A stretch of 64,000 nt of DNA from a virus, in IMG/VR virus record IMGVR_UViG_3300010430_000013, positions 1 to 64,000 of that record, one strand, 5' to 3'. Both the position numbers and the translations under genes were made by a program. Below, piece by piece: positions 3,446 to 59,367 of the stretch. Under the pieces are notes generated by a model, which saw only the letters and a program-made list of their open reading frames with translations, made no database searches and was not told the origin of the DNA. The stretch's first letter is position 1. The number at the start of each line of letters is the position of its first letter.

Positions 3446-3772
3446 ATGACTTTGCCTAACATGCAACCCGGACAAGAAGTTACCCCTGACATGCGTTACT
3501 GCATCATTCGATGCCGAGATGCTGGCGTTCACGCTGGATATGTTGCGCATCACTCGGGTCGAGAAGTGACTCTGCTGAAAAGCCGTCGTCTTTGGAAGTG
3601 GCACGGTAAAACGCTGAGTGGCCTTGCCCAGGAAGGCACGACCAATGCGGACGAATGCAAGTACGCCAATGAGATTCCTGAGATCATGGTACTTGATGCT
3701 TGCGAAATCATTCCATGCTCGGAAGCTGGCAAGGCTTCCATCGGCATGATTCCCGACTGGGAAAACGAGTAA
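3446..3772 (+). CDS. DUF6948-like phage protein
   Basis: 108 aa. MRYCIIRCRDAGVHAGYV, the RRLWKWHGKTLSGLAQEG core and the CEIIPCSEAGKASI ending match, from memory, a widespread small phage family (YxIVRsxdAGVwaGyl ... aRRLWyWaGAasLsqLA ... aciLPcTeaA). The function is unknown. It has a strong GGAG RBS and is followed by an intrinsic terminator. Confidence 0.75.
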   Translation: MTLPNMQPGQEVTPDMRYCIIRCRDAGVHAGYVAHHSGREVTLLKSRRLWKWHGKTLSGLAQEGTTNADECKYANEIPEIMVLDACEIIPCSEAGKASIGMIPDWENE

Positions 3773-3783
3773 TAAAGGGGGTG

Positions 3784-3819
3784 GGCGGCGCTGCCTTCGG
3801 GTGGCGCTGCCTGTTTTTT
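3784..3819 (+). terminator. Intrinsic terminator before the glycine-rich array
   Basis: A 12-bp stem with three G-U pairs (3784-3795 with 3800-3811) closed by TTCG, then TGTTTTTT. The ATG of the first glycine-rich mini-gene begins at the end of the T-run (3820), so the array either depends on read-through or has a promoter I cannot see. Confidence 0.8.
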
Positions 3820-4032
3820 ATGCAAGAAATAGAAAACATACATGGCTCCTGTAGAATATCAGGCTATTCAACATTTGTTGTCGGTGATACACTCTATGGA
3901 AATACCCGACTTGAAAAAAAAGGCGATGGCAAAGGAAGAGGCTGTGGCGACGGATTCGGAAGGTCTAGCGGTTACGGACGGGGTGACGGTTGGGCTGAAG
4001 GCAGATGTCTGGCAGAAGGGATGTCCTGGTGA
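3820..4032 (+). CDS. Glycine-rich mini-protein 1
   Basis: 70 aa starting MQEIENIHGSCRISGYST. The ATG sits on the preceding terminator's T-run. Two Gly/Asp stretches (GKGRGCGDGFG and GYGRGDGW) lie in the C-terminal half. It is a clear paralogue of the next gene in its first 28 residues. A longer in-frame reading upstream overlaps the DUF6948 gene and was discarded. TGATG couples it to the next gene. Confidence 0.7.
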   Translation: MQEIENIHGSCRISGYSTFVVGDTLYGNTRLEKKGDGKGRGCGDGFGRSSGYGRGDGWAEGRCLAEGMSW

Positions 4033-4211
4033 TGACTGAAATAGAGGGGGCCTCTGGTTCTTGTAGGGTGTCAGGTTGCTCAACATATGATGTTGAAGTT
4101 GCTGCTTATGGAAACATCCTAGATCTAAATTACGGCTCAGGACTAGGCTGTGGCGATGGACAAGGAGATTGCCAAGGTTTCGGACGGGGGGATGGTTTCG
4201 GCAATGTTTGA
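4032..4211 (+). CDS. Glycine-rich mini-protein 2
   Basis: 59 aa, MTEIEGASGSCRVSGCST, starting inside the stop of the previous gene (TGATG at 4030-4034). It shares the xEIE..xGSCR[IV]SGxST start with gene 1, then GLGCGDGQGDCQGFGRGDGF. The paralogy of 1 and 2 is direct evidence of tandem duplication. Confidence 0.7.
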   Translation: MTEIEGASGSCRVSGCSTYDVEVAAYGNILDLNYGSGLGCGDGQGDCQGFGRGDGFGNV

Positions 4212-4395
4212 AACAGACACATCGTGTAACATTAGTGATCACTCTGTGAGTAATTCTTATAATAATATATGCACTAAAAAAGGATTTGGTTCTGGTGCAG
4301 GTAGCGGCGATGGCAGAACAAGAGACCCTCGTTCCGCATCCGAGGGAGATGGCTACGGTAATGGCAGAGGAACCCAGTATGGACAATGGCCATAG
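4204..4395 (+). CDS. Glycine-rich mini-protein 3
   Basis: 63 aa. The ATG at 4204 overlaps the previous stop by 8 bases and is chosen over upstream ATGs in frame. The N-terminus TSCNISDHSVSN recurs as NISDHTVNH in the gene at 7842, linking distant members. Gly run: GFGSGAGSGDG, then EGDGYGNGRG. Confidence 0.65.
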   Translation: MFETDTSCNISDHSVSNSYNNICTKKGFGSGAGSGDGRTRDPRSASEGDGYGNGRGTQYGQWP

Positions 4396-4610
4396 ATATG
4401 CCTTATTCAAATGCAGCAATTGAGACACGATACGGTTCGTGTGACTCTTCTGGATCATCCAAAGAAAATCCTTGCTATGCAAACGGCAACGTAATTTGCA
4501 ACGTAGGTTATGGATACGGCTCTGGTGACGGAGACACGGGCATGTCTGGTTACGGCGAAGGAGACGGTTATGCTATGGGACAAGGACTTAAAGAAGGGTT
4601 AAATGCTTAA
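4386..4610 (+). CDS. Glycine-rich mini-protein 4
   Basis: 74 aa from 4386, or 70 aa if the ATG at 4398 just after the previous stop is used; the sequence does not decide. It contains YGSCDSSGSS, similar to NGSCHADGSS in the next gene, and a long VGYGYGSGDGDTG run followed by GYGEGDGYAMGQG. Confidence 0.7.
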   Translation: MAIDMPYSNAAIETRYGSCDSSGSSKENPCYANGNVICNVGYGYGSGDGDTGMSGYGEGDGYAMGQGLKEGLNA

Positions 4611-4884
4611 ATCACGGAACAAGCGAATAAATGCTAACGGCTCGTGTCACGCAGATGGCAGCTCTAAAATACCAGACCATCGGATTTATTTTGATCTGGA
4701 GGCAGAAGGACAAGGCTACGGTTACGGCAATGGGGACGGGTCTTATGGGTCCAAAACCCCCGGACGAAGAGCCTCGAACGGAAATGGGCGCGGCCACGGC
4801 ATGTGCTTCAGGTCTGGCGCATCAGTAGGTATAGGTGCATTAAAAGCTGATTGTTTCTCAGACGGAAGGTCTGTCAGAGAATGA
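4603..4884 (+). CDS. Glycine-rich mini-protein 5
   Basis: 93 aa, the longest member, overlapping the previous stop by 8 bases. A basic N-terminus (MLKSRNKRINANGSC) is followed by GQGYGYGNGDGSYGS and a less regular C-terminal half with GNGRGHG. Coupled to the next gene by ATGA. Confidence 0.7.
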   Translation: MLKSRNKRINANGSCHADGSSKIPDHRIYFDLEAEGQGYGYGNGDGSYGSKTPGRRASNGNGRGHGMCFRSGASVGIGALKADCFSDGRSVRE

Positions 4885-5105
4885 GTTACCGTAATGAAAT
4901 ACTAGGAAGGGGCGCTGGATTCGGCTCTGGAGAATGCACTCAATATGGAAATTTTTCCAGATGGGCATATTTACCCTCTAGTAATTTTTGCTATGGATCA
5001 GGAGCCACTGGCGGGGGGTCAGACCACGGGACTGGCTTAGGTGGCGGCTTATTGTTTAGTGACTGCGATAAAACTGGCAAATCTCACTTAGCCGTAGAAA
5101 TTTAA
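4881..5105 (+). CDS. Glycine-rich mini-protein 6
   Basis: 74 aa. The ATG at 4881 forms ATGA with the previous stop and is preferred over the in-frame ATG at 4851. Here the Gly motif is near the N-terminus (GRGAGFGSGEC), with a second looser Gly run (YGSGATGGGS). The end (LFSDCDKTGKSHLAVEI) is not Gly-rich. Confidence 0.7.
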   Translation: MSYRNEILGRGAGFGSGECTQYGNFSRWAYLPSSNFCYGSGATGGGSDHGTGLGGGLLFSDCDKTGKSHLAVEI

Positions 5106-5303
5106 ATGAATGAACAGTTTGAAGATGGCTTAGGTCACGGAGATGGTCGCGCCGATGGCTACACAGACGAACAAGGCTTCGGAGAAGGCGACGGATATGC
5201 TTGGGGAAGAGGAACCAGTGGTGGTTACGAAGAACAATTTGATCTCGACCCAGAAGGATATGGAAACGGATACTGCTTCAAAACTGGTGAAGGGGCAGGT
5301 TAA
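5106..5303 (+). CDS. Glycine-rich mini-protein 7
   Basis: 65 aa, starting directly after the previous TAA with no overlap. It is very acidic and Gly-rich: GLGHGDGRADGY, GFGEGDGYAWGRG and GYGNGYC give three regularly spaced Gly runs. Its many Asp residues could bind Ca2+, but that is only an inference. Confidence 0.7.
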   Translation: MNEQFEDGLGHGDGRADGYTDEQGFGEGDGYAWGRGTSGGYEEQFDLDPEGYGNGYCFKTGEGAG

Positions 5304-5439
5304 CATTGCTTACGAATGTCCCAGCGGGGCAACAACTTCAGCAGGGTTTGGATACGGTCACGGTTGCAAAATGAATGGTTATGGAAACGGATACGGCTCT
5401 GGCGAGGGATATTCTAATGGAGTCGGCAATGGAGTCTAA
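5287..5439 (+). CDS. Glycine-rich mini-protein 8
   Basis: About 50 aa. No ATG lies near the expected junction. The options are GTG at 5287 (used here) or ATT at 5305, just after the previous stop and behind an AAGGGG sequence. The protein carries GFGYGHGC and the dense NGYGNGYGSGEGYSNGVGNG run to its end. Confidence 0.5.
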   Translation: MKGQVNIAYECPSGATTSAGFGYGHGCKMNGYGNGYGSGEGYSNGVGNGV

Positions 5440-5665
5440 ATCTAGGTTTGGCTATGGTGAAATCCTAACCGGATACATGGACTACGGAGGCGGCGAAAGT
5501 CATGACTGCTGCAATGTTTATGGTACAAATTGCCGTAGAAATTTAACAAACCAACAATTCGGAGACGGCTGCGGCAGCGGATCATCTGATTACGACGGAT
5601 TTTCTTTTGGTTTTGGCGAAGGCGATGGAGAGGGACTTGAAGATGGGCGCGGGTGCTGTTCTTAA
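5429..5665 (+). CDS. Glycine-rich mini-protein 9
   Basis: 78 aa from the ATG at 5429, overlapping the previous stop by 11 bases. RFGYGEILTGYMDYGGG is followed by a Cys-containing middle (DCCNVYGTNC) and a C-terminal FGFGEGDGEGLEDG run. Confidence 0.65.
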   Translation: MESKSRFGYGEILTGYMDYGGGESHDCCNVYGTNCRRNLTNQQFGDGCGSGSSDYDGFSFGFGEGDGEGLEDGRGCCS

Positions 5666-5897
5666 AGTAAGTGCTACCGCTTACAAAAAAATCACCCTGC
5701 TTCAAAACAACGAACGGGGCATAGTAAGCTCCCCTAAAGAAAGCATCTACTTCGGCCAGCCAGCTTTTAAAGAAAATGGAAAAATTTTAACATTTAATCC
5801 AGAGCAGGGCCAATTCGTTAAAGTCGACCGAACTTGGGTTAACACTAGGGTTATGGTTAAACTAGATGAAAGAAGAACATACAGATTGCCAGCATGA
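5643..5897 (+). CDS. Non-glycine-rich gene within the array
   Basis: 84 aa from the ATG at 5643, overlapping gene 9. Apart from a short MGAGAVLKVS start it has normal composition, with beta-like alternation, KESIYFGQPAF and VNTRVMVKLDE. It is unlike the mini-proteins, so the array is a mixed operon rather than a pure repeat. Family unknown. Confidence 0.65.
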   Translation: MGAGAVLKVSATAYKKITLLQNNERGIVSSPKESIYFGQPAFKENGKILTFNPEQGQFVKVDRTWVNTRVMVKLDERRTYRLPA

Positions 5898-6024
5898 CTG
5901 GGAAGCTATATATAGATTCAACAGCACATTTCGCAGTGGAATAGGCTGGGGCTTCGGAGAAGCTAACGACAATTCTGGAGGGACCACAAGTGGTAGATGC
6001 AAAAGCGATGGTAGCGGAGACTAG
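5866..6024 (+). CDS. Glycine-rich mini-protein 10 (short)
   Basis: 52 aa, MKEEHTDCQHDWEAIYRF, then GIGWGFGEANDNSGG and a Cys. It overlaps the previous gene by 32 bases. The GIGWGFGEA element resembles GIGWGTGEA in the last array member (9188-9457), which supports it being real despite its size. Confidence 0.6.
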   Translation: MKEEHTDCQHDWEAIYRFNSTFRSGIGWGFGEANDNSGGTTSGRCKSDGSGD

Positions 6025-6256
6025 TCTTCCTTTTCTAAAATCTCCTAGAATAGAGCTAATTAGCGCCAAACTCTTAAGAGAGGAGGGCACTTTAGAAATC
6101 TATCAAGTTACCTATAGAAAAGGCACAAAACCCCGACCTTATTATAAAAAATTCTACAAAGAAGGCATCATGGTGTATTCCAATGGAGTTTATGGCCTTG
6201 GTAAAACAGTTAAAAGTGCCAGGCGTAGCTTCATGAGGAAGATTGGATTTATCTAA
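6008..6256 (+). CDS. Hypothetical protein within the array
   Basis: 82 aa from the ATG at 6008; a GTG at 5990 would add six residues. Basic and hydrophobic, with RIELISAKLLREEGTLEIY, PRPYYKKFYKEGIMVY and a basic C-terminus. Normal composition, no Gly runs. It ends TAATG into the next gene. Function unknown. Confidence 0.65.
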   Translation: MVAETSLPFLKSPRIELISAKLLREEGTLEIYQVTYRKGTKPRPYYKKFYKEGIMVYSNGVYGLGKTVKSARRSFMRKIGFI

Positions 6257-6498
6257 TGGAATTTGATCTGCGTAATATATTTAATTATGGCATAAGCTTC
6301 AAAGACCCGGATGATTATTGTCTTATTGAGAGTACCAGAAGACATCGTCGAGTCGTGACCCCTAAAATTTCAGCTCGTGAATTTAGGAATTATTTATTCC
6401 ATATTGGGGGCTGGCCTGATGTAGAGCGGGTCGTGTATTTTTACAAGAAGGATGGTATTTTATACATTTCGGACCAATGGCACAAAAATATTTACTAG
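6256..6498 (+). CDS. Hypothetical protein within the array
   Basis: 80 aa, start fused to the previous stop (TAATG). Contains FNYGISFKDPDDYCLIES, a basic RRHRRVV patch and GGWPDVERVVYFYKKDG. Normal composition; family not recognised. Confidence 0.65.
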   Translation: MEFDLRNIFNYGISFKDPDDYCLIESTRRHRRVVTPKISAREFRNYLFHIGGWPDVERVVYFYKKDGILYISDQWHKNIY

Positions 6499-6755
6499 AA
6501 GTTACTACGGATTGGGATTTTGCCTTGGTGTATAAGGATAGGTATTATTATGGAGATATAACACTTCTTTTAGACAGCCCAAGCGAATTAAATAAAATGA
6601 CAATCGTATGTGGCAGTAAAACTTACGAGTTCGACTTTTCCAAAGAACAAATTCTTTTTAATCCTGAGGCCGAATTTAAATATCTCGGCGGAAACAGAAA
6701 TGTAAAATGGACTCCGGTTACCCTAAAAAAATTAAATGAACAAAGTCAAATTTAA
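6477..6755 (+). CDS. Hypothetical protein within the array
   Basis: 92 aa, overlapping the previous gene by 22 bases. Predominantly beta-type alternation (VTTDWDFALVYKDRYYYGD, FKYLGGNRNVKWTPV). No known motif. It lies between two glycine-rich stretches. Confidence 0.65.
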   Translation: MAQKYLLEVTTDWDFALVYKDRYYYGDITLLLDSPSELNKMTIVCGSKTYEFDFSKEQILFNPEAEFKYLGGNRNVKWTPVTLKKLNEQSQI

Positions 6756-6945
6756 AGAATTTTCCGAAACTGGTCTCGGCTATGGAATAGGTTCCTTTGA
6801 TGGGGAAGAAGACGGTGAATGCCCTCAAGGTCTTTGGAAAGCCTACATTAAATTATTTTCTGACGGACACGGTTACGGCGGCGGAAAAGATAACACTAAT
6901 TGCCTAAGGTCGGGGCGTATAATATCAACGGACAATTCAAAATAA
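6736..6945 (+). CDS. Glycine-rich mini-protein 11
   Basis: 69 aa, ATG overlapping the previous gene by 20 bases. GLGYGIGSFDGEEDGEC is followed by a non-Gly stretch (WKAYIKLFSDG) and HGYGGGKDNTNC. It resumes the array after four ordinary genes. Confidence 0.65.
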   Translation: MNKVKFKEFSETGLGYGIGSFDGEEDGECPQGLWKAYIKLFSDGHGYGGGKDNTNCLRSGRIISTDNSK

Positions 6946-7124
6946 ATGACAATGGCTGGGGCTGCGGATGCTTGGACGGTTTTACCGAAGATGAATTACT
7001 TAACGAGTGGTGTATTCTTGTTGCCGGGACGGGTTTAGACACCGGAGGCGGAGCGTTTAACTCAGATTGCGACAGTCAAGGTTTATCTAACGCTTGGACT
7101 CCTTCTGAAGGATTATCAAATTGA
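6900..7124 (+). CDS. Glycine-rich mini-protein 12
   Basis: 74 aa, apparently from a TTG at 6900, overlapping the previous gene by 46 bases; no ATG exists in this frame near the junction. NGWGCGCLDGFTEDEL and GTGLDTGGGAFNSDC are the Gly/Cys parts. It ends TTGA into the next gene. Confidence 0.55.
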   Translation: MPKVGAYNINGQFKINDNGWGCGCLDGFTEDELLNEWCILVAGTGLDTGGGAFNSDCDSQGLSNAWTPSEGLSN

Positions 7125-7453
7125 GTATTTTAGTTAGCATATATTTGTTGTTTGCTGGTTTTGCCTTGCCATGGTATATATATCAATGTTTTTGTTTGAG
7201 AAATGACGTATCTCTACTTAAAAAAGCTTTATTAGCTAAACTTAACTCAACTAGTGGTCTTGCTAAGACTATAATTAAATTGAAGGACGAGATTACTCAA
7301 CTTAAACACATTGAAGATACCAAGATTCGGCAGATTTCTGAGGAATGGTCTAAATATAGAAAATTTCTTATGGAGAAATACCCAGCCGAGGATGGTAAGG
7401 AATGGGAGTTTGAATGCGAATACCACCAGAAGATAGATGGATTACTAAAATAA
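7121..7453 (+). CDS. Membrane-anchored coiled-coil protein
   Basis: 110 aa with a TTG start overlapping the previous stop (TTGA). Residues 1-25 form a transmembrane segment (VSIYLLFAGFALPWYIY). Residues 30-80 look like a coiled coil (LKDEITQLKHIED). It is the only membrane protein in the array and could anchor its neighbours, though that is speculation. Confidence 0.65.
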   Translation: MSILVSIYLLFAGFALPWYIYQCFCLRNDVSLLKKALLAKLNSTSGLAKTIIKLKDEITQLKHIEDTKIRQISEEWSKYRKFLMEKYPAEDGKEWEFECEYHQKIDGLLK

Positions 7454-7641
7454 ATTGTTCAGAAGTAGCCATATTAACTGAAAAGATGGGAGTTGGATAT
7501 GGTCCCACCTATATAGCCAACACTATGTTTAATATGAATTGGACTCCTGGAAAGGGATCTCAGGGAGATTGCTATTGTCAGATGTGGTCTGAGGATGGCC
7601 AGTCTGGTTTAGGTTGTGGTGAGGCGAATGGTTCAAGATAA
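7414..7641 (+). CDS. Glycine-rich mini-protein 13
   Basis: 75 aa from an ATG, overlapping the previous gene by 40 bases. The N-terminal half is ordinary (IPPEDRWITKINCSEVA). The second half has GVGYGP, GKGSQGDCYC and GLGCGEANG. It overlaps the next gene by 14 bases. Confidence 0.6.
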   Translation: MRIPPEDRWITKINCSEVAILTEKMGVGYGPTYIANTMFNMNWTPGKGSQGDCYCQMWSEDGQSGLGCGEANGSR

Positions 7642-7867
7642 CTGTGGAGATGGCTCAGGTCAAACTGTTTCAACAGGACTAGGCGTAGGCGCGGGAGCAG
7701 GTTCTGGCAAAAGCAATTGTTGTGGAGAATCTGAAATTGATTTGTCTGATTCGTCTAATCGCTGGAATATCGGCTGGGGAACCGGAACACGCTACGGAAA
7801 CTGCGATTTTAGTGGATTAAGCAGTCATTGGATAAGAAAAATTGAACATTTCAGACCATACGGTTAA
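7628..7867 (+). CDS. Glycine-rich mini-protein 14
   Basis: 79 aa from the ATG at 7628 (a GTG at 7616 is possible). NCGDGSGQTVSTGLGVGAGA and GSGKSNCCGES are followed by a WNIGWGTGTRYGNC stretch. Of the members, it is the richest in small residues. Confidence 0.65.
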   Translation: MVQDNCGDGSGQTVSTGLGVGAGAGSGKSNCCGESEIDLSDSSNRWNIGWGTGTRYGNCDFSGLSSHWIRKIEHFRPYG

Positions 7868-8081
7868 TCATTATGGATATGGCACAGGTTACGGTCATCT
7901 AGACAACACAGACCCGGATGACGATGATATCATATTCTATTTAACAGCTGTCACCGAAAAAAGAGGTGGTTCGACTGGCAGAGGATGTATATACTCAGAC
8001 GGGGAAAAATCTGGCTACGGCTCTGGAACCGGTCATTTAAATAAGGACTCATGCAAGGCGTCAGGAGCTGAATGTGGTTAA
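7842..8081 (+). CDS. Glycine-rich mini-protein 15
   Basis: 79 aa, probably from a TTG at 7842. NISDHTVNHYGYGTGYGH repeats the NISDHSV start of mini-protein 3. An acidic middle (DPDDDD) is followed by SGYGSGTGHLNKDSC. Confidence 0.55.
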   Translation: MNISDHTVNHYGYGTGYGHLDNTDPDDDDIIFYLTAVTEKRGGSTGRGCIYSDGEKSGYGSGTGHLNKDSCKASGAECG

Positions 8082-8280
8082 AGACTGTGACATACAAGGC
8101 TTTTCTTATAAAGAGAGAGCAGAGAGGGTTGATTGTGACGGCGACTGCAATGGGATTGGCGGTGGCTGGGGAGACGGAGAGGCATGTGGCCATACAATGA
8201 GAAACGGAACATCAAAATGCGAGAGAATTGGGACTGCGATTCAATTGGGGTCGGGCGAGGGTATGGACAGGTCTCTATAA
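8074..8280 (+). CDS. Glycine-rich mini-protein 16
   Basis: 68 aa from GTG at 8074, overlapping the previous gene by 8 bases. CDGDCNGIGGGWGDGEAC is the central run. Cys-rich (six Cys). The start codon choice is uncertain. Confidence 0.55.
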   Translation: MVKDCDIQGFSYKERAERVDCDGDCNGIGGGWGDGEACGHTMRNGTSKCERIGTAIQLGSGEGMDRSL

Positions 8281-8426
8281 ACTTTGATAACCCAGTGGTT
8301 GTCCTGATGTATGAGCTTGCTGTTAAATCAGGTCAAAACATGACGCATGGTTGTTCTGAAAATAATTTTCAATTTGAAAAACACGGCATTGGTATAGGTT
8401 GGGGACATGCGTATACCGACAGGTAA
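8184..8426 (+). CDS. Glycine-rich mini-protein 17
   Basis: 80 aa from ATG 8184, or 69 aa from ATG 8217; the latter gives the shorter overlap typical of the array. Two Gly runs (SIGVGRGYGQ and GIGIGWGHA) flank an ordinary hydrophobic stretch (FDNPVVVLMYELAV). Confidence 0.6.
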   Translation: MWPYNEKRNIKMRENWDCDSIGVGRGYGQVSINFDNPVVVLMYELAVKSGQNMTHGCSENNFQFEKHGIGIGWGHAYTDR

Positions 8427-8595
8427 TAATTTTGGCATAGGAATGGGTCATATAGATGGTTTTGATGAGACCGATGCTTTTTTGGTCTTTATGTCTATAC
8501 TATATCAGTCGCGTGGGTATGGCTACGGAAAAGGCTGTAACCACACGCAGGACGAAATAAATTCTGGCGAAGGACAGGGAAGAGGATCATGGTAA
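8407..8595 (+). CDS. Glycine-rich mini-protein 18
   Basis: 62 aa, ATG overlapping the previous stop by 20 bases. FGIGMGHIDGFDETDAF, then RGYGYGKGCNH and GEGQGRG. Followed by a 7-base overlap into the next ATG. Confidence 0.65.
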   Translation: MRIPTGNNFGIGMGHIDGFDETDAFLVFMSILYQSRGYGYGKGCNHTQDEINSGEGQGRGSW

Positions 8596-8801
8596 ATTCT
8601 GGAGCAGGCTCAGTTTACACTGATTGTCTTAGAGATGGTTCAACAGATGAACAAATTCTATGTTTAATTGGTTCTCCAGGATATTATGATGGGTCTGGGC
8701 TCGGTTGGGGGTCAGCTACAGGCTGGGCGCCTCAATACTATGGGGCAGGCTTTGGTAGTGGGGACTGCAATCAGAAAGGTGACAACAATTACCGTTTCTA
8801 G
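8589..8801 (+). CDS. Glycine-rich mini-protein 19
   Basis: 70 aa from ATG 8589. NSGAGSVYTDC, then GSGLGWGSATGWA and GAGFGSGDCNQKGD. The C-terminal 23 bases overlap the next gene. Confidence 0.65.
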   Translation: MVNSGAGSVYTDCLRDGSTDEQILCLIGSPGYYDGSGLGWGSATGWAPQYYGAGFGSGDCNQKGDNNYRF

Positions 8802-8994
8802 AATCAACAAACAATATAAAGACTCCAAAGGAGATGCTTGCGGAAAAGGCAGATCCGATGGAAAATCTACAGGTTATTGCATTGTTAGCTTTTATCCTCC
8901 AGGGGAGGGAAGCGGTGCAGGATACGAAACAGGACATGGTTTTGGAAGAGGAAGCGGAAACGGTGATTGTAGAAGCCTTGGCCAGAGCATTTAA
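8779..8994 (+). CDS. Glycine-rich mini-protein 20
   Basis: 71 aa from GTG 8779; an ATT at 8788 behind AAAGG is an alternative. GDACGKGRSDGKSTGYC and GEGSGAGYETGHGFGRGSGN form the Gly-rich part. A longer in-frame extension to 8668 lies wholly over the previous gene and was rejected. Confidence 0.5.
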   Translation: MTTITVSRINKQYKDSKGDACGKGRSDGKSTGYCIVSFYPPGEGSGAGYETGHGFGRGSGNGDCRSLGQSI

Positions 8995-8997
8995 GAT

Positions 8998-9216
8998 ATG
9001 TATAATGGTAACTACGACGAAACTCACAGTGACTTCTGTGTTTCAGGGTGCGGCTACTGCACCACAGACGGAGAAGGTTGGGGCAACGGACTACATTTGG
9101 ATTTTTGCTTTGGGTATGGGGCATCCGGCAGTGGAGTTGGTGTTACTTCTTGCAGCGCGTCCGGTTACTCAAAAATGAGCAGAACAAATGGATCAATTAC
9201 CGAAACTCCACGATGA
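8998..9216 (+). CDS. Glycine-rich mini-protein 21
   Basis: 72 aa from ATG 8998, three bases after the previous stop. SGCGYCTTDGEGWGNGLH aligns with YGCGYCSADGTAWGDGDA of the next gene, another adjacent duplicated pair. The later part has GYGASGSGVGV. Confidence 0.7.
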   Translation: MYNGNYDETHSDFCVSGCGYCTTDGEGWGNGLHLDFCFGYGASGSGVGVTSCSASGYSKMSRTNGSITETPR

Positions 9217-9457
9217 CTATGAAATCTACGGCTGCGGATATTGTTCAGCAGATGGCACAGCATGGGGAGACGGCGATGCATACACCACCAACACACCAAC
9301 CGGACTAGGCTTTGGAACAGGAGCGGCAGACTCAGAGGCTAACGATAACGTCAGTTCTGGTTCGGAAATAGGCATAGGTTGGGGCACCGGAGAAGCTTGG
9401 GGTAGTACTGATCATTGCGGGATTGGCTTATCTGGTTATTCCAAAGATTTTATGTAA
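9188..9457 (+). CDS. Glycine-rich mini-protein 22 (last of array)
   Basis: 89 aa from ATG 9188. YGCGYCSADGTAWGDGDA is shared with mini-protein 21, and GIGWGTGEAWGS with mini-protein 10. The stop lies inside the 3' end of the convergent serine protease gene (22-base overlap), which closes the array. Confidence 0.7.
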   Translation: MDQLPKLHDDYEIYGCGYCSADGTAWGDGDAYTTNTPTGLGFGTGAADSEANDNVSSGSEIGIGWGTGEAWGSTDHCGIGLSGYSKDFM

Positions 9458-10143: not shown

Positions 10144-10283
10144 AGACTGTTGCTAAACTTGTTAATTCAAGGTTCCGTTGTTCCGACGGGCTAAATAGAG
10201 TAAACTAGAGGCTGGCGCAGCTCCTTTACGACCTTCGGATAAAGGAGCTGTCGCCTCGAAATAGTATAATAGACGAACAGTCT
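10144..10283 (+). ncRNA. Retron-like msr-msd unit 1
   Basis: Complementary 8-base ends (AGACTGTT 10144-10151, AACAGTCT 10276-10283) look like a1/a2, and the first is followed by GC, as at retron branch sites. A 6-bp hairpin CCGTTG-TTC-CGACGG (10175-10189), a conserved GCTAAAT...AACTAGAGGCT stretch, and a long stem (GGCGCAGCTCCTTTA with TAAAGGAGCTGTCGCC, 10214-10255) lie inside. The long stem would be the msd part copied by the RT. Order and position, directly upstream of a retron-type RT, fit a retron non-coding RNA. Confidence 0.7.
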
Positions 10284-10286
10284 TAA

Positions 10287-10401
10287 CATTGCTGCTTTTC
10301 ATCGTGAAATTCCGTTGATACGACGGGCTAAATTTATTTAACTAGAGGCTTGCGCTACCAGGTTATCACCTGGTTTCGCGTCACCATTAAAACGAGCAAT
10401 G
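10287..10401 (+). ncRNA. Retron-like msr-msd unit 2
   Basis: Second copy, 3 bases after unit 1. Its ends are a different complementary pair (CATTGCT 10287-10293, AGCAATG 10395-10401), the latter overlapping the RT start codon. CCGTTG-ATA-CGACGG (10312-10326) and GCTAAAT...AACTAGAGGCT are conserved. The long stem is unrelated in sequence (ACCAGGT-TATC-ACCTGGT, flanked by GCG/CGC, 10352-10379). Pairing is kept while sequence changes between the copies, which argues for a selected RNA structure. Confidence 0.7.
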
Positions 10402-11103
10402 CATCTTACACAAAAATCCATAAAAATAGGCAACAAAATCAGGAAAATTGTCCTGTGTCCACCAGACTTTAAGGAGTCATATTATCGAAAACACGTAGAA
10501 CTTAGCAACCTATTCGAAGAAAACCCGTTCTGTGAGTATGTACATTGCAGAATTGGAAGATCCGTCATCAGTAATGCCAAGCCCCACATAGGGTTTACCT
10601 TTACCCTTAAGATGGATTTAAAAAACTTCTTCTACAATATTACTGTAGACTCACATGGACAATACATCCCCAAAGAATATCATAGATTTGTGTTTTATCG
10701 GGGTAGAGTTCCACAGGGCTTACCGACGAGTCCTTCTGTTGCCAATCTAGCTTTTGCTGTTTGCGACAAGCAGATAGCAGAATTTTGCAAAAAGAAAAAA
10801 GTTATTTATACTAGATACTGTGACGACCTGAGCTTTTCATTTAACGACTATACTTTGGCTGACCAGCTAAAGAAAAAAGTTTCAGATATTGTTTCTGGCG
10901 AGGCTCACAAGATCAACACCCGAAAAACCAAGTTGCTTTACGCAAAGGCAGGCCGTAGAATAATCTGCGGAGTTGGCGTTGGAGAAACTAAGCTGCACGC
11001 CACCAGAAAGTCTAAGCGTAACTTACGAACCTACAAGAAGAATGGGCAAGAGCTTGCAGCCCAAGGAATGCAGGCTTGGATTAACTACTGCGAAAGCGAA
11101 TAA
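10399..11103 (+). CDS. Minimal retron-type reverse transcriptase
   Basis: 234 aa, shorter than typical retron RTs (about 300 or more), mainly at the N-terminal fingers. Motifs in order: GRSVISNAKPH (53-63); first catalytic Asp in KMDLKNFF (D73); RVPQGLPTSPSVANLAF (from 103); YCDD (140-143) in place of the usual YADD; KINTRKTKLL (161-170); ICGVGVGE (179-186), equivalent to the retron VTGxxVN. The PQG-type motif and GRS..NAKPH segment are retron-like rather than DGR-like. It should prime from the upstream RNA. The next gene starts two bases downstream. No established retron effector is fused or obvious. Confidence 0.9.
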   Translation: MHLTQKSIKIGNKIRKIVLCPPDFKESYYRKHVELSNLFEENPFCEYVHCRIGRSVISNAKPHIGFTFTLKMDLKNFFYNITVDSHGQYIPKEYHRFVFYRGRVPQGLPTSPSVANLAFAVCDKQIAEFCKKKKVIYTRYCDDLSFSFNDYTLADQLKKKVSDIVSGEAHKINTRKTKLLYAKAGRRIICGVGVGETKLHATRKSKRNLRTYKKNGQELAAQGMQAWINYCESE

Positions 11104-23763: not shown

Positions 23764-23928
23764 ATGATTTTTTACGGAATCGGATGTCAAACCGCCACCA
23801 ACGCTTATGGGGCGGGTGAACAGTATGACATGTACGATTCGAGCATGGGCGCTGGAGAAGGTTCCGGGGTAGGTTATAGCAACGGCGGAGGCCAAGGAAT
23901 AGGCCATGTTGGGTGGTCAATACTTTAA
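23764..23928 (+). CDS. Solitary glycine-rich mini-protein A
   Basis: 54 aa from ATG 23764. YGIGCQTATNAYGAGEQY and GAGEGSGVGYSNGGGQGIGH have the composition of the 3.8-9.5 kb array, but it stands alone 14 kb away. A dispersed paralogue suggests a mobile or repeatedly copied gene family. Confidence 0.6.
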   Translation: MIFYGIGCQTATNAYGAGEQYDMYDSSMGAGEGSGVGYSNGGGQGIGHVGWSIL

Positions 23929-23944
23929 TTAGGATTAGCAAATC

Positions 23945-24100
23945 ATGCTAGAGTGGCTTAAAAAATTCTTAGCACGAGGAAATTGCTGGAGAAGCCACAG
24001 GCATAATTGGCGCATCGTAACTCGCTATGGAGATGGCAGGGTGAAAAAGTGGACTTGTTTAGAGTGTGGCAGGACTTGGATTAAAAGAGGACCAAAATGA
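23945..24100 (+). CDS. Small basic zinc-ribbon protein, 51 aa
   Basis: [20 protein letters not shown] at the start and [14 protein letters not shown] at the end, giving a C-x2-C pair plus an upstream Cys/His cluster. Stop and next ATG overlap (ATGA). Likely a mini zinc protein that binds nucleic acid. Confidence 0.6.
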
Positions 24101-26310
24101 AAAAAGCCCTAATCACAGGCGTAACAGGACAAGACGGTTCCTACTTGGCAGAGCTTCTCCTTGAGAAGGGATACGAAGTTTACGGAATGATTCGTCGAGC
24201 TAGCACGAGCAATACGTCCCGCATTGACCATATTAATGATAAAAATTTTTCTATTTTATATGGCGACTTGGCGGATCAGGCCAGCTTGACGGGTTTGGTT
24301 GGTGCTGTCAAACCTGATGAAATCTATAACTTGGCGGCTCAGTCGCATGTGGGAGTTTCCTTTAAGGTTCCAGAATACACAGCAGATGTGACTGGCGTGG
24401 GGCCTTTGCGGTTGCTTGAAGCAGTTCGATTGAACGGCTTGTGTGGGCACACTCGCTTTTATCAGGCTTCTACTTCCGAACTTTTCGGAAAGGTTCAAGA
24501 AGTTCCGCAAAGTGAAACTACTCCGTTCTACCCGAGGAGCCCGTATGGGGTAGCTAAGTTGCACGCCCACTGGAGCGTAATCAACTACAGAGAAGCACAC
24601 AATATGTATGCGTGTAGTGGAATTTTATTTAATCATGAGACTTTATCTTATGGAACTCCAATTATTATCAAAAAAGATGAAGAATTAGATATTCTACCCA
24701 TAGGGGATGTTGCCAGATTTCATACTGGGGTGTTATTCAATATGGAAAAAGACTACCAGGAGGGAAAGCCTATTTCAGATATAAAAATATGGGACCAGTC
24801 TGGATGGGTCGACATTTCTTGGGTGTCAGGATATCCGCATAAAGGTGATAAAAAACCCAGAATAGTGAATGCCAGAAACTCTGTTTACATGGCCACAGGA
24901 AGTCATCCATGTATCATGGAAGATAACTCCGAAAAAAATACAGAGAATTTAAAAGTGGGGGATAAGGTAAAAAATATATCTTACCCGCCTGTTACGAAAG
25001 CTAAAGATGTTTCTTTAGAAGAAGCCGAGTGGCTTGGAATGCTGGTGGGAGACGGAAACCTTAAAGGCAATGCTCCAATATTTACAAATAAAGACCCAAA
25101 AATTAAAAAAAAGTTTGCCGATTTATGGGTTGCATTTACTGGCGGCGAATACAAATATCGAGATAGTTTTTCTGCATTTAACAATGAGCCTGTAGGACAA
25201 GTTTCATGTTATGGTAAATCAGATTTAGAGTATGACATCTATACGAGTGATATAAGTCCATTTGGACATAAAAATAAAAAAGTTCCAATGAAAATATTGA
25301 ATGGATCATTAGATGTAATGGAAGCTTTTTTAGTTGGATACAATTCTTGCGATGGACTAAAATCTAATAAATGCACTTATCGATTTAAGAATTTTAAAAC
25401 AAATTCACCAACTCTAGCCTCGGGTCTTTTGTTTTTAGTATCCAAAGTAACTGGGCAAAAATACAATATCACAGTAGAAGATTCGCTTAAGTGGGGAAAG
25501 CGTCAGCAATATTATTCTATTAATCTTCTCTCGGATCAAGAAACCTCTTTAGAGAAGTATAATGAAGTTAAGGGTCTGTTAGATAAAAATATTTTCATAA
25601 GAAAAATTCACAGAGATACTGGGATAAGCAGAAAATTTATACAAAAAGTTAAATCCGGCTATATTCCAACTAATGAACACGTACTCAAAAAATGTTCAAA
25701 TGAAATTAAAAAAATAATAGACATACCAGATTACTCTGGATGGTTTTTTGATTTAGAAACATCCAGTGGCACATTTCATGCTGGAATTGGGCAGGGAGTA
25801 GTCCATAATTCCCCTCGTCGCGGTGAGAACTTTGTGACTAGGAAAATTACAAAAGCCCTATGTAATGTAGCCAAAGGTGATCTAGCTTATCTCCACATTG
25901 GCAACATGGACGCCAAAAGAGACTGGGGACATGCTCGTGACTATGTAAGAGGAATGTATCTGATGCTCCAGCAGGATTCCCCAGAAGACTACGTTCTAGC
26001 CACAGGAGAACAGCACAGCGTCAGAGAATTCATCGAACTAGCCGCTTTAGAGTTAGGAATTGAGATTGGCTGGACAGGCAAAGGACTTAGTGAAGAGGGG
26101 TATGTTAAAAGACTGTTCGACACAAAATATGGAGATCCACCACTTGTAGAAGACGAAGTCATTGTGGTTGTTAATGAAGAGTTCTATCGACCGACCGAAG
26201 TCGATACCTTGTTGGGCGACCCCAGCAAAGCCAAGAAGGAACTCTCTTGGTATCCTCAGGTTTCATTTAAATCCCTCGTCTCTGAAATGGTGGAAGCCGA
26301 CTATGACTAA
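24097..26310 (+). CDS. gmd: GDP-mannose 4,6-dehydratase with intein
   Basis: 737 aa precursor. The spliced protein would be 347 aa, normal for GMD, which converts GDP-mannose to GDP-4-keto-6-deoxymannose, the precursor of GDP-fucose and related sugars. Extein motifs: GVTGQDGSY (8-16), STSELFG (125-131), catalytic Y150xxxK154 in SPYGVAK, and FNHE joined to [12 protein letters not shown] across the intein. With the sulfotransferase and glycosyltransferases elsewhere in the window it suggests glycan building. Start by ATGA overlap. Confidence 0.95.
24640..25809 (+). mobile_element. Intein in GMD (390 aa, LAGLIDADG)
   Basis: Inserted between FNHE and SPRRGE, a highly conserved GMD motif. It starts TLSYGTPI (Thr as residue 1 instead of Cys or Ser), has block B ATGSHPCI, two DOD endonuclease motifs (WLGMLVGDG and [10 protein letters not shown]) and ends GVVHN before Ser+1. 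Full-size splicing and homing domains look intact. The Thr at the first position is rare and may slow or alter splicing. Confidence 0.9.
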
Positions 26311-26784: not shown

Positions 26785-27486
26785 ATGTTTAACCCAGAAA
26801 CCGGAAAACGAATCCACCTCACTCACGGAGCAGGCAACGGCGTGGATAAAGCCTGCTTAATTACCGCTTCCAACATGCTGATTGGTCGCGGACAAGACGG
26901 CGACAACAATAGTTGCGTCTGCCCTGTCCTGCGGAAATTCATTATCACTACCAACGACTCGATGCCCGAAGATTTGCTCAGCGAACTCTACGGTCCACTC
27001 GCATGGGAAATCCTTGGCACCGCAACCGGTGACCCTGCAACCGAACAGCAGCGTGCGTATCGCTTTGTGGACTGGGCGGTGCGGGAGATTACACCAATAG
27101 CATTAAGGGCATCAGGGATGGGTGACCACGCATCAAAGCTGAAGGCGCTGTCGCCAGTGGTAGACCAGCAGACCGCCCGTGCCGTCGCCCGTGCCGCCAG
27201 TGCCGCCCGTGTCGCCCGTGCCGCCGCCCGTGCCGCCGATGCCGCCTATGCCGCCGCCGCCGTCGATGCCGCCGTCGATGCCGCCGTCGATGCCTCCGCT
27301 TATGCCGCCGCCCGTGCCGCCGCCCGTGCCGCCGCCAGTGCCGCCCGTGCCGCCCGTGCCGCCGATGCCGAATTGATCTGGCGAAAGTGCCCTGACATTA
27401 TCCGCGAGGTAGCTGCGATTGGGGACAGGCGACCTGTTGAGACTGTAATTGACCACTGCGATTTAGCAGCCGCTCTAGCCGACTGA
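26785..27486 (+). CDS. Cassette-block gene 2: Ala-rich repeat protein
   Basis: 233 aa. The N-terminal 120 residues are globular (HLTHGAGNGVDKACLITAS, then YRFVDWAVREITPIALRASG). The middle is built of Ala/Arg/Asp triplet repeats (RAARAADAAYAAAAVDAAVD), probably one long amphipathic helix. The C-terminus has IIREVAAIGDRRPVE. The RFxDxAVRxIxPxALRxAG layout recalls Ala-rich phage proteins of unknown role. The frame ends LAD-stop inside repeat 3. The GCC-GCC triplet DNA is likely unstable in copy number. Confidence 0.65.
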   Translation: MFNPETGKRIHLTHGAGNGVDKACLITASNMLIGRGQDGDNNSCVCPVLRKFIITTNDSMPEDLLSELYGPLAWEILGTATGDPATEQQRAYRFVDWAVREITPIALRASGMGDHASKLKALSPVVDQQTARAVARAASAARVARAAARAADAAYAAAAVDAAVDAAVDASAYAAARAAARAAASAARAARAADAELIWRKCPDIIREVAAIGDRRPVETVIDHCDLAAALAD

Positions 27487-31993: not shown

Positions 31994-32539
31994 ATGAAAA
32001 AGTTCATTATTTTAATGGCGCTTTTTGCCATGTCGATTGGCTGTCAGAGAGTTCCGCAGTATACTGTCGAACTAGTAGATGTTGTCCCAGATGCTCCGGG
32101 ACCTAATCCGACCCCCCGACCAAATTCCAATAAGGTTCAGACGGGCAGGGTTTACGAGCCAAGAACCTACAAAGAATACAACGATTTAGTCCAGAAGGCA
32201 GTCAAAGCTAAGCAGCCTGTCGCGATTAATATTGGGACTACTTGGTGTGGCTACTGCGTGAAGATGACTCCTCACTTCAAGAAGCTATCTAAAGAAATGA
32301 CCAAAGTTGTCTTTATTAAGGCTACAGTGGACAAGTGGTCCGAAGATGATAGAGTCCGACTGACTATCTTGGCAAAGATCAAGGGCTACCCTAAGACCTT
32401 TATTAAGTATCCCGACCGAGAATGGAAAAACAATACTGGGTATATGGAAGAGTCTGTTCTCCGAAATTACCTCAGCGAACGTTACAATCTAACTAACTCC
32501 CTTTATTACGGCGAAAGAACCCTGTTAAATGAAAATTAA
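31994..32539 (+). CDS. Thioredoxin-like lipoprotein
   Basis: 181 aa. Lipoprotein signal peptide with lipobox (FAMSIGC, Cys17). A Pro/Asn-rich spacer precedes a thioredoxin fold with the redox motif WCGYC (about 82-86) and the cis-Pro loop GYPKT. It should act outside the inner membrane on disulfides, perhaps of the Cys-containing secreted phage proteins. Overlaps the next gene by 11 bases. Confidence 0.85.
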   Translation: MKKFIILMALFAMSIGCQRVPQYTVELVDVVPDAPGPNPTPRPNSNKVQTGRVYEPRTYKEYNDLVQKAVKAKQPVAINIGTTWCGYCVKMTPHFKKLSKEMTKVVFIKATVDKWSEDDRVRLTILAKIKGYPKTFIKYPDREWKNNTGYMEESVLRNYLSERYNLTNSLYYGERTLLNEN

Positions 32540-33509
32540 ATTCGAAACTCTAGAGAAAAAAGAGTTGTTCGCAATTGACGCTCTTGTAGATCACTTGTCT
32601 CAAAATGTGCATGATGCGGTAGCCGACAATGTCGCTCCGTACGAACAGCACATGTATTCAGAAGACGCTATTCATTTTCCCGGAGCTGGCTATGGAAAAA
32701 TGTGTACGGCTGGATTTCCTCAGTTTTGCTTTGGCGATGACTGGTGGGATGAAAACTTCTTCTTGGCTGAGTATGACTTTACGGGAGTTAACTACGGCCC
32801 CAAAAGCGGCACAGTAGTAGCACCGGATATTGTACTGTCCGCCGAGCACCACGGTAATCTAACCAGCACCAGTTCTCCATTGCCTGATTATTTGTATTTT
32901 TATGACCAAGATGGAGTGGAATATCAAAGATCTATCGTAGGTCATATGTATGTTCCGGGCTCTGGTGACTTGAGAGTTAATAAGCTTGACTCACCGCTGC
33001 CCGCTGAAATCAAGGTTTACAGCTTGCCTGACCCAGATTTTCATGCTGATGATTATAGATTAGCTAATGCAGTTTACATGGATCAAGACGACAATGTATA
33101 TATTGGCAAGTTGGCCAATTATACTCCAGCAGACGTATCAGACGTTAATGATCAGTACCAGAGATTAATTAAAGATACCGTCCCTTATGTAGACGAATGG
33201 GAAGGTGCAGTAGGAGGAGACTCTAGCCATCCAACCTTTATCCTCAATGGAAACGGCGAACTGGTTCTGGCATCAGTTATGCACAAGGGACCGTCTCCAG
33301 CGGGTCCAGACCTTGGGGACCCTGTGGTTCAAGCAAATCTGCAATCTGCTATGGCTACTTTGGGTTCTACATATTCCCTACAAACTGTTGAATGGGGAGT
33401 TCCTGCTGATTGGGAGGCTCCAGCACCCGCGTCTGTTGATGCTATATTTGCATCCTTTGAAGAAGTGGGAGGAAGACGAACGCGAACTGTTAGACAGACT
33501 TGGTCTTAA
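32529..33509 (+). CDS. Trypsin-like protease with LEPR-XLL-like N-terminus
   Basis: 326 aa. It begins MKIKFETLEKKELFAID, close to the N-terminal signature (FExLExRxLLA) I remember from exported planctomycete proteins. The rest shows a chymotrypsin-like pattern: H107 in VLSAEHHG, a candidate Asp in NKLD (154) and S232 in GAVGGDSSHP, which resembles GDSGGP loosely. The C-terminus is acidic then Arg-rich. The N-terminal signature is the best host clue in the window. Protease activity is plausible, not certain. Confidence 0.65.
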   Translation: MKIKFETLEKKELFAIDALVDHLSQNVHDAVADNVAPYEQHMYSEDAIHFPGAGYGKMCTAGFPQFCFGDDWWDENFFLAEYDFTGVNYGPKSGTVVAPDIVLSAEHHGNLTSTSSPLPDYLYFYDQDGVEYQRSIVGHMYVPGSGDLRVNKLDSPLPAEIKVYSLPDPDFHADDYRLANAVYMDQDDNVYIGKLANYTPADVSDVNDQYQRLIKDTVPYVDEWEGAVGGDSSHPTFILNGNGELVLASVMHKGPSPAGPDLGDPVVQANLQSAMATLGSTYSLQTVEWGVPADWEAPAPASVDAIFASFEEVGGRRTRTVRQTWS

Positions 33510-54451: not shown

Positions 54452-54832
54452 ATGGCTAACTCTTACAATCACTCGGTTCTGGTCGGCAACGTTGTTCGTG
54501 ATACGGAAATTCGCGATGCCGGAAAGTCTAAGGTAGCAGACAATGCTATCGCCATTACGGAGACTTTCGGGGAAAAGGAAGTAACAACATTTGTTGACAT
54601 TACTCTTTGGGGACGAAATGCTGAAACGTTTCAGAAGTTCTGCCCTAAAGGTCGCACGGTCTTGATTGAAGGCTCTCTTCGTCAAGACAAGTGGACAGAC
54701 AACGACGGCAACAAACGTTCTAAAATGTTTGTTAATGTCGACCGATTTGTTCTTTTAGGCTCAAAGCCTGGCGGTGGTCAGCAGCAGGAAACTGTTGCGG
54801 CAGGAGCAGGCTCGGATGATCTCCCCTTCTAA
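54452..54832 (+). CDS. ssb: Single-stranded DNA-binding protein
   Basis: 126 aa. OB-fold pattern (NHSVLVGNVVRDTEIRDAGK, VDITLWGRNAETF, GRTVLIEGSLRQDKW) and the classical acidic tip GSDDLPF at the C-terminus, which recruits partner proteins in bacterial SSBs. GGAGG RBS. A terminator follows. Confidence 0.95.
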   Translation: MANSYNHSVLVGNVVRDTEIRDAGKSKVADNAIAITETFGEKEVTTFVDITLWGRNAETFQKFCPKGRTVLIEGSLRQDKWTDNDGNKRSKMFVNVDRFVLLGSKPGGGQQQETVAAGAGSDDLPF

Positions 54833-54863
54833 GCCTCCCTCTCGCTTAGAAGGCACTTCGATG

Positions 54864-54896
54864 CGCCTGCGTGCTCGTAGCACGCAGGCGTTTTTT
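54864..54896 (+). terminator. Intrinsic terminator after ssb
   Basis: CGCCTGCGTGCT (54864-54875) pairs perfectly with AGCACGCAGGCG (54879-54890) around CGT, then TTTTTT. Confidence 0.92.
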
Positions 54897-54914
54897 ATTC
54901 TTTTGGAGTTGTTT

Positions 54915-56420: not shown

Positions 56421-56632
56421 TGGCAGATTCTATTACATATGGTCAGTTGACGGTTGGCCAGAAATATACTCTCGTTAATGGAGAGGACACAGATACAATT
56501 TGGCTTAAAATCAAAACTCAAACAAAAGGCTGCTGCCGTAATCGAAAGGTTGTGGCGAATGCTCGTAATTCTGTGGATGCTACTAAAACAGCAATCCATA
56601 AACCAAGCGATAAGGTCGTGGTTGTCGGTTAA
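56420..56632 (+). CDS. Hypothetical protein, 70 aa
   Basis: ATG fused to the polymerase N-part stop (TAATG). SITYGQLTVGQKYTLVNGED, IWLKIKTQTKGCCRNRKVV: a small beta-type fold. Followed by a terminator. Unknown family. Confidence 0.6.
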   Translation: MADSITYGQLTVGQKYTLVNGEDTDTIWLKIKTQTKGCCRNRKVVANARNSVDATKTAIHKPSDKVVVVG

Positions 56633-56660
56633 TCAATAAAAGATAAATTGATTCTTTTTT

Positions 56661-56700
56661 GAACCCGCTGACTGACCTATAGGCTTTTGGCGGGTTTTTT
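56661..56700 (+). terminator. Intrinsic terminator
   Basis: AACCCGC (56662-56668) pairs with GCGGGTT (56690-56696) followed by TTTTT. It sits between the two polymerase parts, so they can be transcribed separately. Confidence 0.75.
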
Positions 56701-56723
56701 TACTTCTTAAATAAGGATTTATT

Positions 56724-56927
56724 ATGGCTAGATTTGACTGGGTTCCTTTTGGTGAGCAATTCCGATTTGAGGGGGATATGTTCAAAAAGATAGATTTCGA
56801 TACCGCTGAGAATATGTTCACAGGCGACTTTCAGCGTTTTGACTCGATGCAGCAAGTAGAGTACGAAGACTACGAAGAAGAAGCGATGGACGTATTCGCG
56901 CTTGATGACGATAACTTGGACTGGTAA
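56724..56927 (+). CDS. Acidic small protein, 67 aa
   Basis: MARFDWVPFGEQFRFEGDMF, then an acidic C-terminus (EYEDYEEEAMDVFALDDDN). No Cys. The strong negative charge might mimic DNA, but that is only a thought. Confidence 0.6.
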   Translation: MARFDWVPFGEQFRFEGDMFKKIDFDTAENMFTGDFQRFDSMQQVEYEDYEEEAMDVFALDDDNLDW

Positions 56928-56931
56928 TCTT

Positions 56932-59014: not shown

Positions 59015-59162
59015 AATAGTTTCGATTCGAAGTCAAGTGATGCGTCTGCCGTGGGAGGCAAAAAGGTCTAACTGCACTAGCAAAAAAGCCTTGGCGTTAT
59101 CAGCAGCTTTTGAAGACCTCGGGGCAGGACCGAGCAGCTCCACTTTTTTCAAAGGAGAAGCA

Positions 59163-59366: not shown

Positions 59367-59367
59367 T

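Follow-up and report, generated by a model that had tools for sequence, protein, structure and literature searches.

An array of 22 glycine-rich mini-genes in a phage genome, a possible expansion of the partner of the predicted Sm-like protein DUF6948

Here we describe an array of 22 glycine-rich mini-genes at positions 3820-9457 of a 64-kb window, the first 64,000 nucleotides (nt) of the 89,733-bp virus record IMGVR_UViG_3300010430_000013, which comes from a tailed phage. The key fact beyond the initial annotation of this stretch, which had already described the array itself, is a link to the gene just upstream, which encodes a protein of the DUF6948 family. Elsewhere DUF6948 is accompanied by small proteins in which glycine alternates with another residue, (Gly-X)n or (GX)n for short. 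We read the array as the (GX)n partner of this DUF6948 + (GX)n module, multiplied and diversified in one lineage, and we put the probability of this overall reading at roughly 0.45. What is new is the arrangement, an expanded low-complexity gene set tied to one gene for a predicted Sm-like protein. In agreement with the remark in the initial annotation that it knew no such phage system, our literature searches found no published description of DUF6948, of its (GX)n partner or of a phage array of this kind.

Linkage of DUF6948 to (GX)n genes

A DNA pattern for GYGxGDGY recovered at least 119 stretches in IMG/VR. Their products are small (GX)n proteins, about 90 amino acids (aa) long, in which X is Y (39%), D (25%), S (17%) or N (12%). 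Most loci carry a single (GX)n gene and some carry tandem copies, 2-5 in number, with five the maximum seen. In this DNA-pattern sample 84 loci have a recognised (GX)n open reading frame (ORF), and in 77 of them an iterated profile finds a same-strand homologue of DUF6948, compared with 0 of 112 control loci lacking such an ORF (Fisher p=7e-47; the samples include redundant contigs and the p-values overstate independence). A scan for GxGDGYAxG, which gave mostly chance matches, was put to use as a control set. DUF6948 precedes the (GX)n gene in 71 loci, mostly with a short overlap and in some with a gap, and most of the seven loci without DUF6948 are cut near the (GX)n gene. When loci are sampled by DUF6948 only, counting those DUF6948 genes with enough flank, a (GX)≥5 run lies alongside in 36/38 cases from GTDB and 79/79 from IMG/VR, against a background of 186 in 2845 random positions (6.5%). 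Across many phyla the linkage is nearly all-or-none. The module is found in IMG/VR phages and in genomes and metagenome-assembled genomes placed in numerous bacterial phyla and in some archaea; example pairs are gene_26/gene_25 of Chlorobiaceae phage CV-1-33 and the IMG/VR loci that we label L046 and L326.

The two parts are occasionally joined. An in-frame DUF6948-(GX)n fusion occurs in one contig, IMGVR_UViG_3300002039_000015 (seen as L022 and L353), and the phrog_18306 profile, with weak glycine-rich matches at about 56-135 and DUF6948 at 155-234, appears to span both. A suspected fusion in L334 was just an overlapping open frame. In some loci associated with Firmicutes and Bacteroidetes (L306:8267-8962, L308, L311, L312, L320 and L303) an unnamed conserved C-terminal domain (VYxIDGVPTII...FAHGETL...), which matches no Pfam family, follows the (GX)n part in one continuous frame, and because of this fusion we take the GX frame to be translated. 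The frame chosen for (GX)n genes is wrong in several deposited annotations, which give products such as MAMALAMA... or MVMVMV... (MT192033.1 gene_25, MW202478.1 1505-2077 and MW202566.1 3111-3401).

The commonest PHROGs among 147 neighbour proteins of the module are RecE-like exonuclease, Erf, RecT, exonuclease, helicases, replication initiation and methyltransferases, by raw, uncontrolled count. Only one of the 25 listed PHROGs is a virion protein. Since the neighbours are recombination and replication genes, the module looks like an early one, not a virion one.

Architecture of the array

The DUF6948 gene at 3446-3772 is the sole copy in a profile search of the whole record. This search uncovered no hidden DUF6948 domain in the ordinary genes of the array, nor did separate checks of o12 and o14. 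The array lies directly downstream on the same strand, with 47 nt between the end of DUF6948 and the first array gene, g1. An intrinsic-terminator hairpin lies in this space and its U-run ends at the ATG of g1. The region 3820-9457 is then tiled without gaps by 27 complete ORFs on one strand, with 99.9% of bases coding. Twenty-two of these are glycine-rich (50-93 aa) and five are ordinary. Neighbours overlap at 24 of the 26 junctions, by 1-64 nt (the median spacing over all junctions is a 17-nt overlap), and the frame changes at 24 of the 26. The start codons are ATG (21), GTG (3) and TTG (3), of which the GTG at 5287, the TTG at 6900 and the choice between 8217 and the ATG at 8184 are uncertain. 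The tiling bears out the initial description of a roughly 5.6-kb array of 22 overlapping mini-genes in alternating frames. Ordinary genes and one membrane protein had been said to be interspersed; five ordinary ORFs are present, and the one at 7121-7453 begins with a hydrophobic segment. No relatives of the ordinary genes were found. One extra glycine mini-gene lies outside the array, at about 23764-23928. The features are as follows.

3446-3772, + strand: DUF6948 protein, 108 aa; PF22253, E=1.5e-26; predicted Sm/LSm-like fold; conserved partner of (GX)n mini-genes
3783-3819, + strand: intrinsic-terminator hairpin; 13-bp stem, UUCG loop, U6; fold -28.1 kcal/mol, z -3.7
3820-4032, + strand: g1, Gly-rich, 70 aa
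4032-4211, + strand: g2, Gly-rich, 59 aa, paralogue of g1
4204-4395, + strand: g3, Gly-rich, 63 aa
4386-4610, + strand: g4, Gly-rich, 74 aa
4603-4884, + strand: g5, Gly-rich, 93 aa
4881-5105, + strand: g6, Gly-rich, 74 aa
5106-5303, + strand: g7, Gly-rich, 65 aa
5287-5439, + strand: g8, Gly-rich, 50 aa, GTG start, uncertain
5429-5665, + strand: g9, Gly-rich, 78 aa
5643-5897, + strand: o10, ordinary small gene, 84 aa, no family
5866-6024, + strand: g11, Gly-rich, 52 aa
6008-6256, + strand: o12, ordinary small gene, 82 aa, no family
6256-6498, + strand: o13, ordinary small gene, 80 aa, no family
6477-6755, + strand: o14, ordinary small gene, 92 aa, no family
6736-6945, + strand: g15, Gly-rich, 69 aa
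6900-7124, + strand: g16, Gly-rich, 74 aa, TTG start, uncertain
7121-7453, + strand: o17, ordinary gene, 110 aa, N-terminal hydrophobic segment
7414-7641, + strand: g18, Gly-rich, 75 aa
7628-7867, + strand: g19, Gly-rich, 79 aa
7842-8081, + strand: g20, Gly-rich, 79 aa, TTG start
8074-8280, + strand: g21, Gly-rich, 68 aa, GTG start
8217-8426, + strand: g22, Gly-rich, 69 aa; alternative start ATG 8184
8407-8595, + strand: g23, Gly-rich, 62 aa
8589-8801, + strand: g24, Gly-rich, 70 aa
8779-8994, + strand: g25, Gly-rich, 71 aa, GTG start
8998-9216, + strand: g26, Gly-rich, 72 aa
9188-9457, + strand: g27, Gly-rich, 89 aa, paralogue of g26
23764-23928, + strand: isolated Gly-rich mini-gene, 54 aa, array style, outside the array

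Evidence for translation

We read the array ORFs as translated proteins because of their codon use and the comparison of paralogues. In 200 dinucleotide shuffles of the region a mean of 0.01 ORFs (maximum 1) pass a glycine-periodicity filter, compared with 18 in the observed sequence. Glycine is encoded by GGA, GGC, GGT and GGG in proportions of.34,.28,.26 and.12 in the array and.35,.28,.23 and.14 in the genome, and in most array genes the codon score of the gene's own frame exceeds those of the +1 and +2 frames. The duplicated pairs that had been pointed out are genuine paralogues by alignment: g1/g2 (3820/4032) have 30 of 59 aligned residues in common and g26/g27 (8998/9188) have 27 of 58. 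The proportion of synonymous differences (pS) between paralogues is above that of nonsynonymous differences (pN), at 0.83 vs 0.38 for g26/g27, where nine of the ten aligned glycine pairs are encoded by different codons. The initial annotation had raised the prospect that frameshift errors had broken up a gene that is uninterrupted in relatives. We reject this because the starts and stops are clean and overlapping, because of the codon evidence and because no such relative was found.

The same data bear on the idea that the array is the product of non-functional drift, in which DNA repeat expansion makes tolerated (GGN NNN)n ORFs and what is seen here are the decaying remains of repeats. The canonical (GX)n genes, being simple repeats, could indeed grow by slippage, and the array members are degenerate. 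However, all the frames are still open and overlapping, pS is above pN, the codons are not repeat-like, a second, cysteine motif is enriched (see below) and the link with DUF6948 holds almost without exception in many phyla. We regard drift as very improbable.

Searches of annotated phages with the array DNA (blastn) or proteins (tblastn) found no direct homologue, within the limits that low-complexity masking sets on such a search. Matches of the glycine proteins to Pfam, PHROG and PDB were compositional and weak. The words said to recur between distant members, NISDH at 4204 and 7842 and GIGWGxGEA at 5866 and 9188, are present; a wider scan for GIGWGxGEA gave three matches, all due to chance.

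Sequence pattern of the array proteins

We compared the 22 array proteins and the product of the 23764 gene with composition-preserving shuffles. The word G-x-G occurs 180 times against 69 in the shuffles (z 16.9), and G-x-G-x-G-x-G 55 times against 1.4 (z 42). The glycine period is two: lag 2 has a z of 17, even lags are enriched up to lag 12 and odd lags are depleted, among them lag 1, i.e. GG (17 vs 70 expected), and lag 3 (18 vs 68 expected, z -7.5). Off-phase positions hold aromatic and acidic residues, and the commonest X residues are Y, S and D. A further word, C-x-x-x-G-x-S, is found 14 times against 1.4 (z 11.5), and a C-x-x-[SD]-G-x-S unit recurs close to either end of many members. 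Cysteine content is 4.3% and net charge is mostly negative. The RTX calcium-binding repeats (GGxGxDxUx nonapeptides) were considered and rejected, as GG is depleted and there is no Pfam RTX match.

Interchangeable adhesin or coat modules, in the form of polyglycine II bundles, had been proposed for these proteins. Polyglycine-II structure requires a three-residue glycine period, and since the period here is two, with lag 3 depleted, such bundles are unsupported. The adhesin or coat role is likewise unsupported because of the direction of the array, which is that of the replication genes and the reverse of that of the virion genes, and because its kin sit beside RecE, Erf, RecT, exonuclease and replication genes. 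The gp38 adhesins of phages, which form a polyglycine II sandwich, are also glycine-rich, but the array proteins differ from these in their period of two rather than three, in their early-gene context and in lying away from tail-fibre genes.

Another structural role can be imagined, that of a silk- or amyloid-like beta material (virion decoration, adhesive or intracellular scaffold) built from interchangeable glycine-alternating strands with cysteine crosslinks. A glycine period of two puts every glycine on one face of a beta-strand, as in silk, the parity is maintained over much of many proteins (32 even and 10 odd for short gaps of 5-8 residues), and the cysteine content and the C-x-x-x-G-x-S motif could supply the crosslinks. 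Yet parity is not significant over gaps of at least nine residues (20 even, 14 odd), transcription of the array goes the way of the replication genes and against that of the virion genes, the module's relatives are found among recombination genes and there is no match to a virion family. We think such a material quite unlikely.

The array as a probable expansion of the module

The nearest DUF6948 relative (72%), L326, has a GX-DUF-GX-DUF-GX alternation (L326:3694-5159) with canonical GX partners, and so already shows tandem amplification of the module. Because the usual number of (GX)n genes is one, and the maximum seen is five, the 22 glycine genes are an extreme expansion. They resemble canonical DUF6948 + (GX)n pairs in same-strand adjacency, small size and GYG/GDG words, and differ in having 22 (plus one distant) diverged members, less glycine, a cysteine motif, interspersed ordinary genes and a terminator. 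The array genes are very probably diverged (GX)n partners.

It could be argued instead that they are an unrelated glycine-rich family beside DUF6948 by coincidence. The terminator that separates the two, the different composition and the extra cysteine motif all fit this. That said, the only DUF6948 gene of the record is directly upstream, its normal place relative to (GX)n genes, the two-residue period and the GYG/GDG words are shared, and a colinear relative lacks both. This 128-kb record (G004) has replication and virion modules colinear with those of our phage (DnaB 36% identity), and neither DUF6948 nor a glycine array. Coincidental adjacency is a most improbable explanation.

Predicted fold of DUF6948

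An AlphaFold2 model of DUF6948, made with 78 homologues, has a mean predicted local distance difference test score (pLDDT) of 93.3 and a predicted template modelling (TM) score of 0.84. The model has strands at 18-23, 27-37, 40-51, 77-82 and 85-90 and helices at 57-63 and 93-100, so that a helix follows the third strand. All of the 50 best Foldseek matches in the PDB (probability 0.90-1.00) are to Sm, LSm or SmAP chains or to complexes in which these occur, and the BFVD matches after DUF6948 itself include phage proteins named Sm-like and one 'RNA binding protein'. Single DUF6948 members also have weak Pfam matches to Hfq (0.015), SM-ATX (0.03), LSM14 (0.08) and LSM (0.15); Sm-type families make up 4 of the 18 weakly matched Pfam families. 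On the strength of the structure matches DUF6948 probably has an Sm-like fold, with sequence-only tests falling short of significance.

Eukaryotic LSm proteins such as Ataxin-2 and LSM14/Scd6 combine an LSm domain with a low-complexity region, and it is to SM-ATX and LSM14 that DUF6948 members weakly match. The DUF6948 system differs in being viral and in having its genes split, and any condensate formation by it is hypothetical. Sm-type cores with flexible glycine-rich tails also occur in bacteria. The Hfq of Acinetobacter baumannii has a glycine-rich tail of GGFGGQ repeats whose removal alters RNA binding (PMC11617691), and an amyloid-like Hfq tail remodels single-stranded DNA, a finding that bears on replication and recombination (PMC10392684). 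Acinetobacter Hfq couples an Sm-like core to a disordered glycine- and aromatic-rich sequence, as is proposed for DUF6948 with (GX)n. The differences are that the phage tail would be a separate protein acting in trans, in 22 versions and with a period of two in place of GGFGGQ, and that DUF6948 has no significant sequence similarity to Hfq.

Weighing the interpretation

Several observations weigh against an expanded (GX)n partner of an Sm-like protein. The best Foldseek match in the PDB has an E of 0.013, with none below 0.001 and a TM-score of about 0.45; an hhalign comparison with the E. coli Hfq profile aligns part of the expected region and is not significant; and profile searches of PDB sequences returned no Sm chain. 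The array proteins are also far from canonical (GX)n, with 21% vs about 40% glycine, far more varied X residues and a cysteine motif that is not typical of the canonical proteins, and because of these differences they may do another job. AlphaFold2, run on g1 with its paralogues, gave no fold but a disordered model (pLDDT 36). No relative with a comparable array, and no second array of such a size, was found. Finally, a strong terminator stands between DUF6948 and g1, where direct overlap is mostly seen elsewhere. Because it lies directly before g1, expression of the array requires read-through, antitermination or an unseen promoter.

If the expanded-module reading is correct, we hypothesize that DUF6948, a small protein, is of the Sm/LSm (Hfq-like) type and has in the (GX)n protein a flexible low-complexity tail, for which there is usually a separate, overlapping gene. 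By analogy with the glycine-rich tails of Hfq, this would be a tail supplied in trans. Early in infection DUF6948, probably assembled into a ring, would attach to RNA or single-stranded DNA; its glycine/tyrosine-rich partner would join it and modulate how the complex binds, turns over or clusters. Such a physical association and nucleic-acid role can be put forward only tentatively, with somewhat more doubt than confidence. Our phage would have 22 diverged partners for its single DUF6948, perhaps a set of tails that differ in what they prefer to bind, and the divergence of the copies would keep homologous recombination from deleting them. The reason for 22 copies is speculative. Further out lies a scheme in which a split system of Sm-like protein and swappable tails clusters or condenses early viral RNA or single-stranded DNA, as an analogue of the Ataxin-2/LSM14 granule scaffolds, with 22 tails acting combinatorially on one ring; we consider this a long shot.

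A role against the host is another candidate. The initial annotation had listed a decoy/antigen-variation repertoire and toxin-like small proteins among its possibilities, and a decoy or toxin repertoire is no more than a candidate. Small anti-host or counter-defence proteins might each block or titrate a different host target, or decoy a defence sensor, with DUF6948 as carrier or antidote and the diversity arising from an arms race. The array's surroundings are accessory and rich in small orphan genes, its copies are strongly diverged while the frame is conserved, net charge is mostly negative, and in other phages the neighbours of the module include such early genes as DNA methyltransferases and anti-repressors. 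Set against this, there is no convincing match to a known family (an anti-phage-defence library was not run on the array proteins), the canonical partner is nearly pure (GX)n and implausible as a specific inhibitor, and a near-obligate Sm-like partner is atypical for anti-defence islands. We judge this explanation rather unlikely, though it deserves to be kept in mind.

Genomic setting

The + strand carries replication genes up to about 63 kb, and the - strand carries tail and virion genes at about 67-86 kb. The array sits in a variable region and has the direction of the replication genes, opposite to the virion genes.

A reverse transcriptase (RT) gene lies at 10399-11103 (RVT_1, E=7e-16). 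It is preceded, at 10173-10355, by two tandem copies of an element (85% over 46 nt, 137 nt apart), each of which runs on into a hairpin of differing sequence with a strong fold (z -4.3). The element has no Rfam family and no exact match elsewhere in IMG/VR; a retron-like non-coding RNA is a possibility. A retroelement link to the array was considered and set aside, as the nearby RT motifs look retron-like rather than of the diversity-generating retroelement type, and no connection to the array was seen.

Other genes in the window are of separate interest. A ribonucleotide reductase gene and a GDP-mannose-dehydratase-like gene (36519-39515 and 24097-26310) have apparent intein-like insertions, as read from their translations. 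A DNA polymerase III alpha-like gene is split over two ORFs with HNH-type genes in between (54774-60954), and the protein of 26785-27486 has a long alanine-rich AARAA/ADAA repeat. The product of 32529-33509 begins MKIKFETLEKKELFA, and because this resembles a planctomycete-type N-terminal sorting motif it suggests a planctomycete host.

Implications

The array provides a handle on a widespread and apparently unstudied phage module, DUF6948 + (Gly-X)n, for which some deposited phage annotations misread the frame of the (GX)n genes. The tight linkage of the two genes leads to a testable prediction, that their products are physical partners, and the fold prediction provides a proposed function for DUF6948. 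With its 22 members, the expansion amounts to a natural experiment on how low-complexity sequence diversifies.

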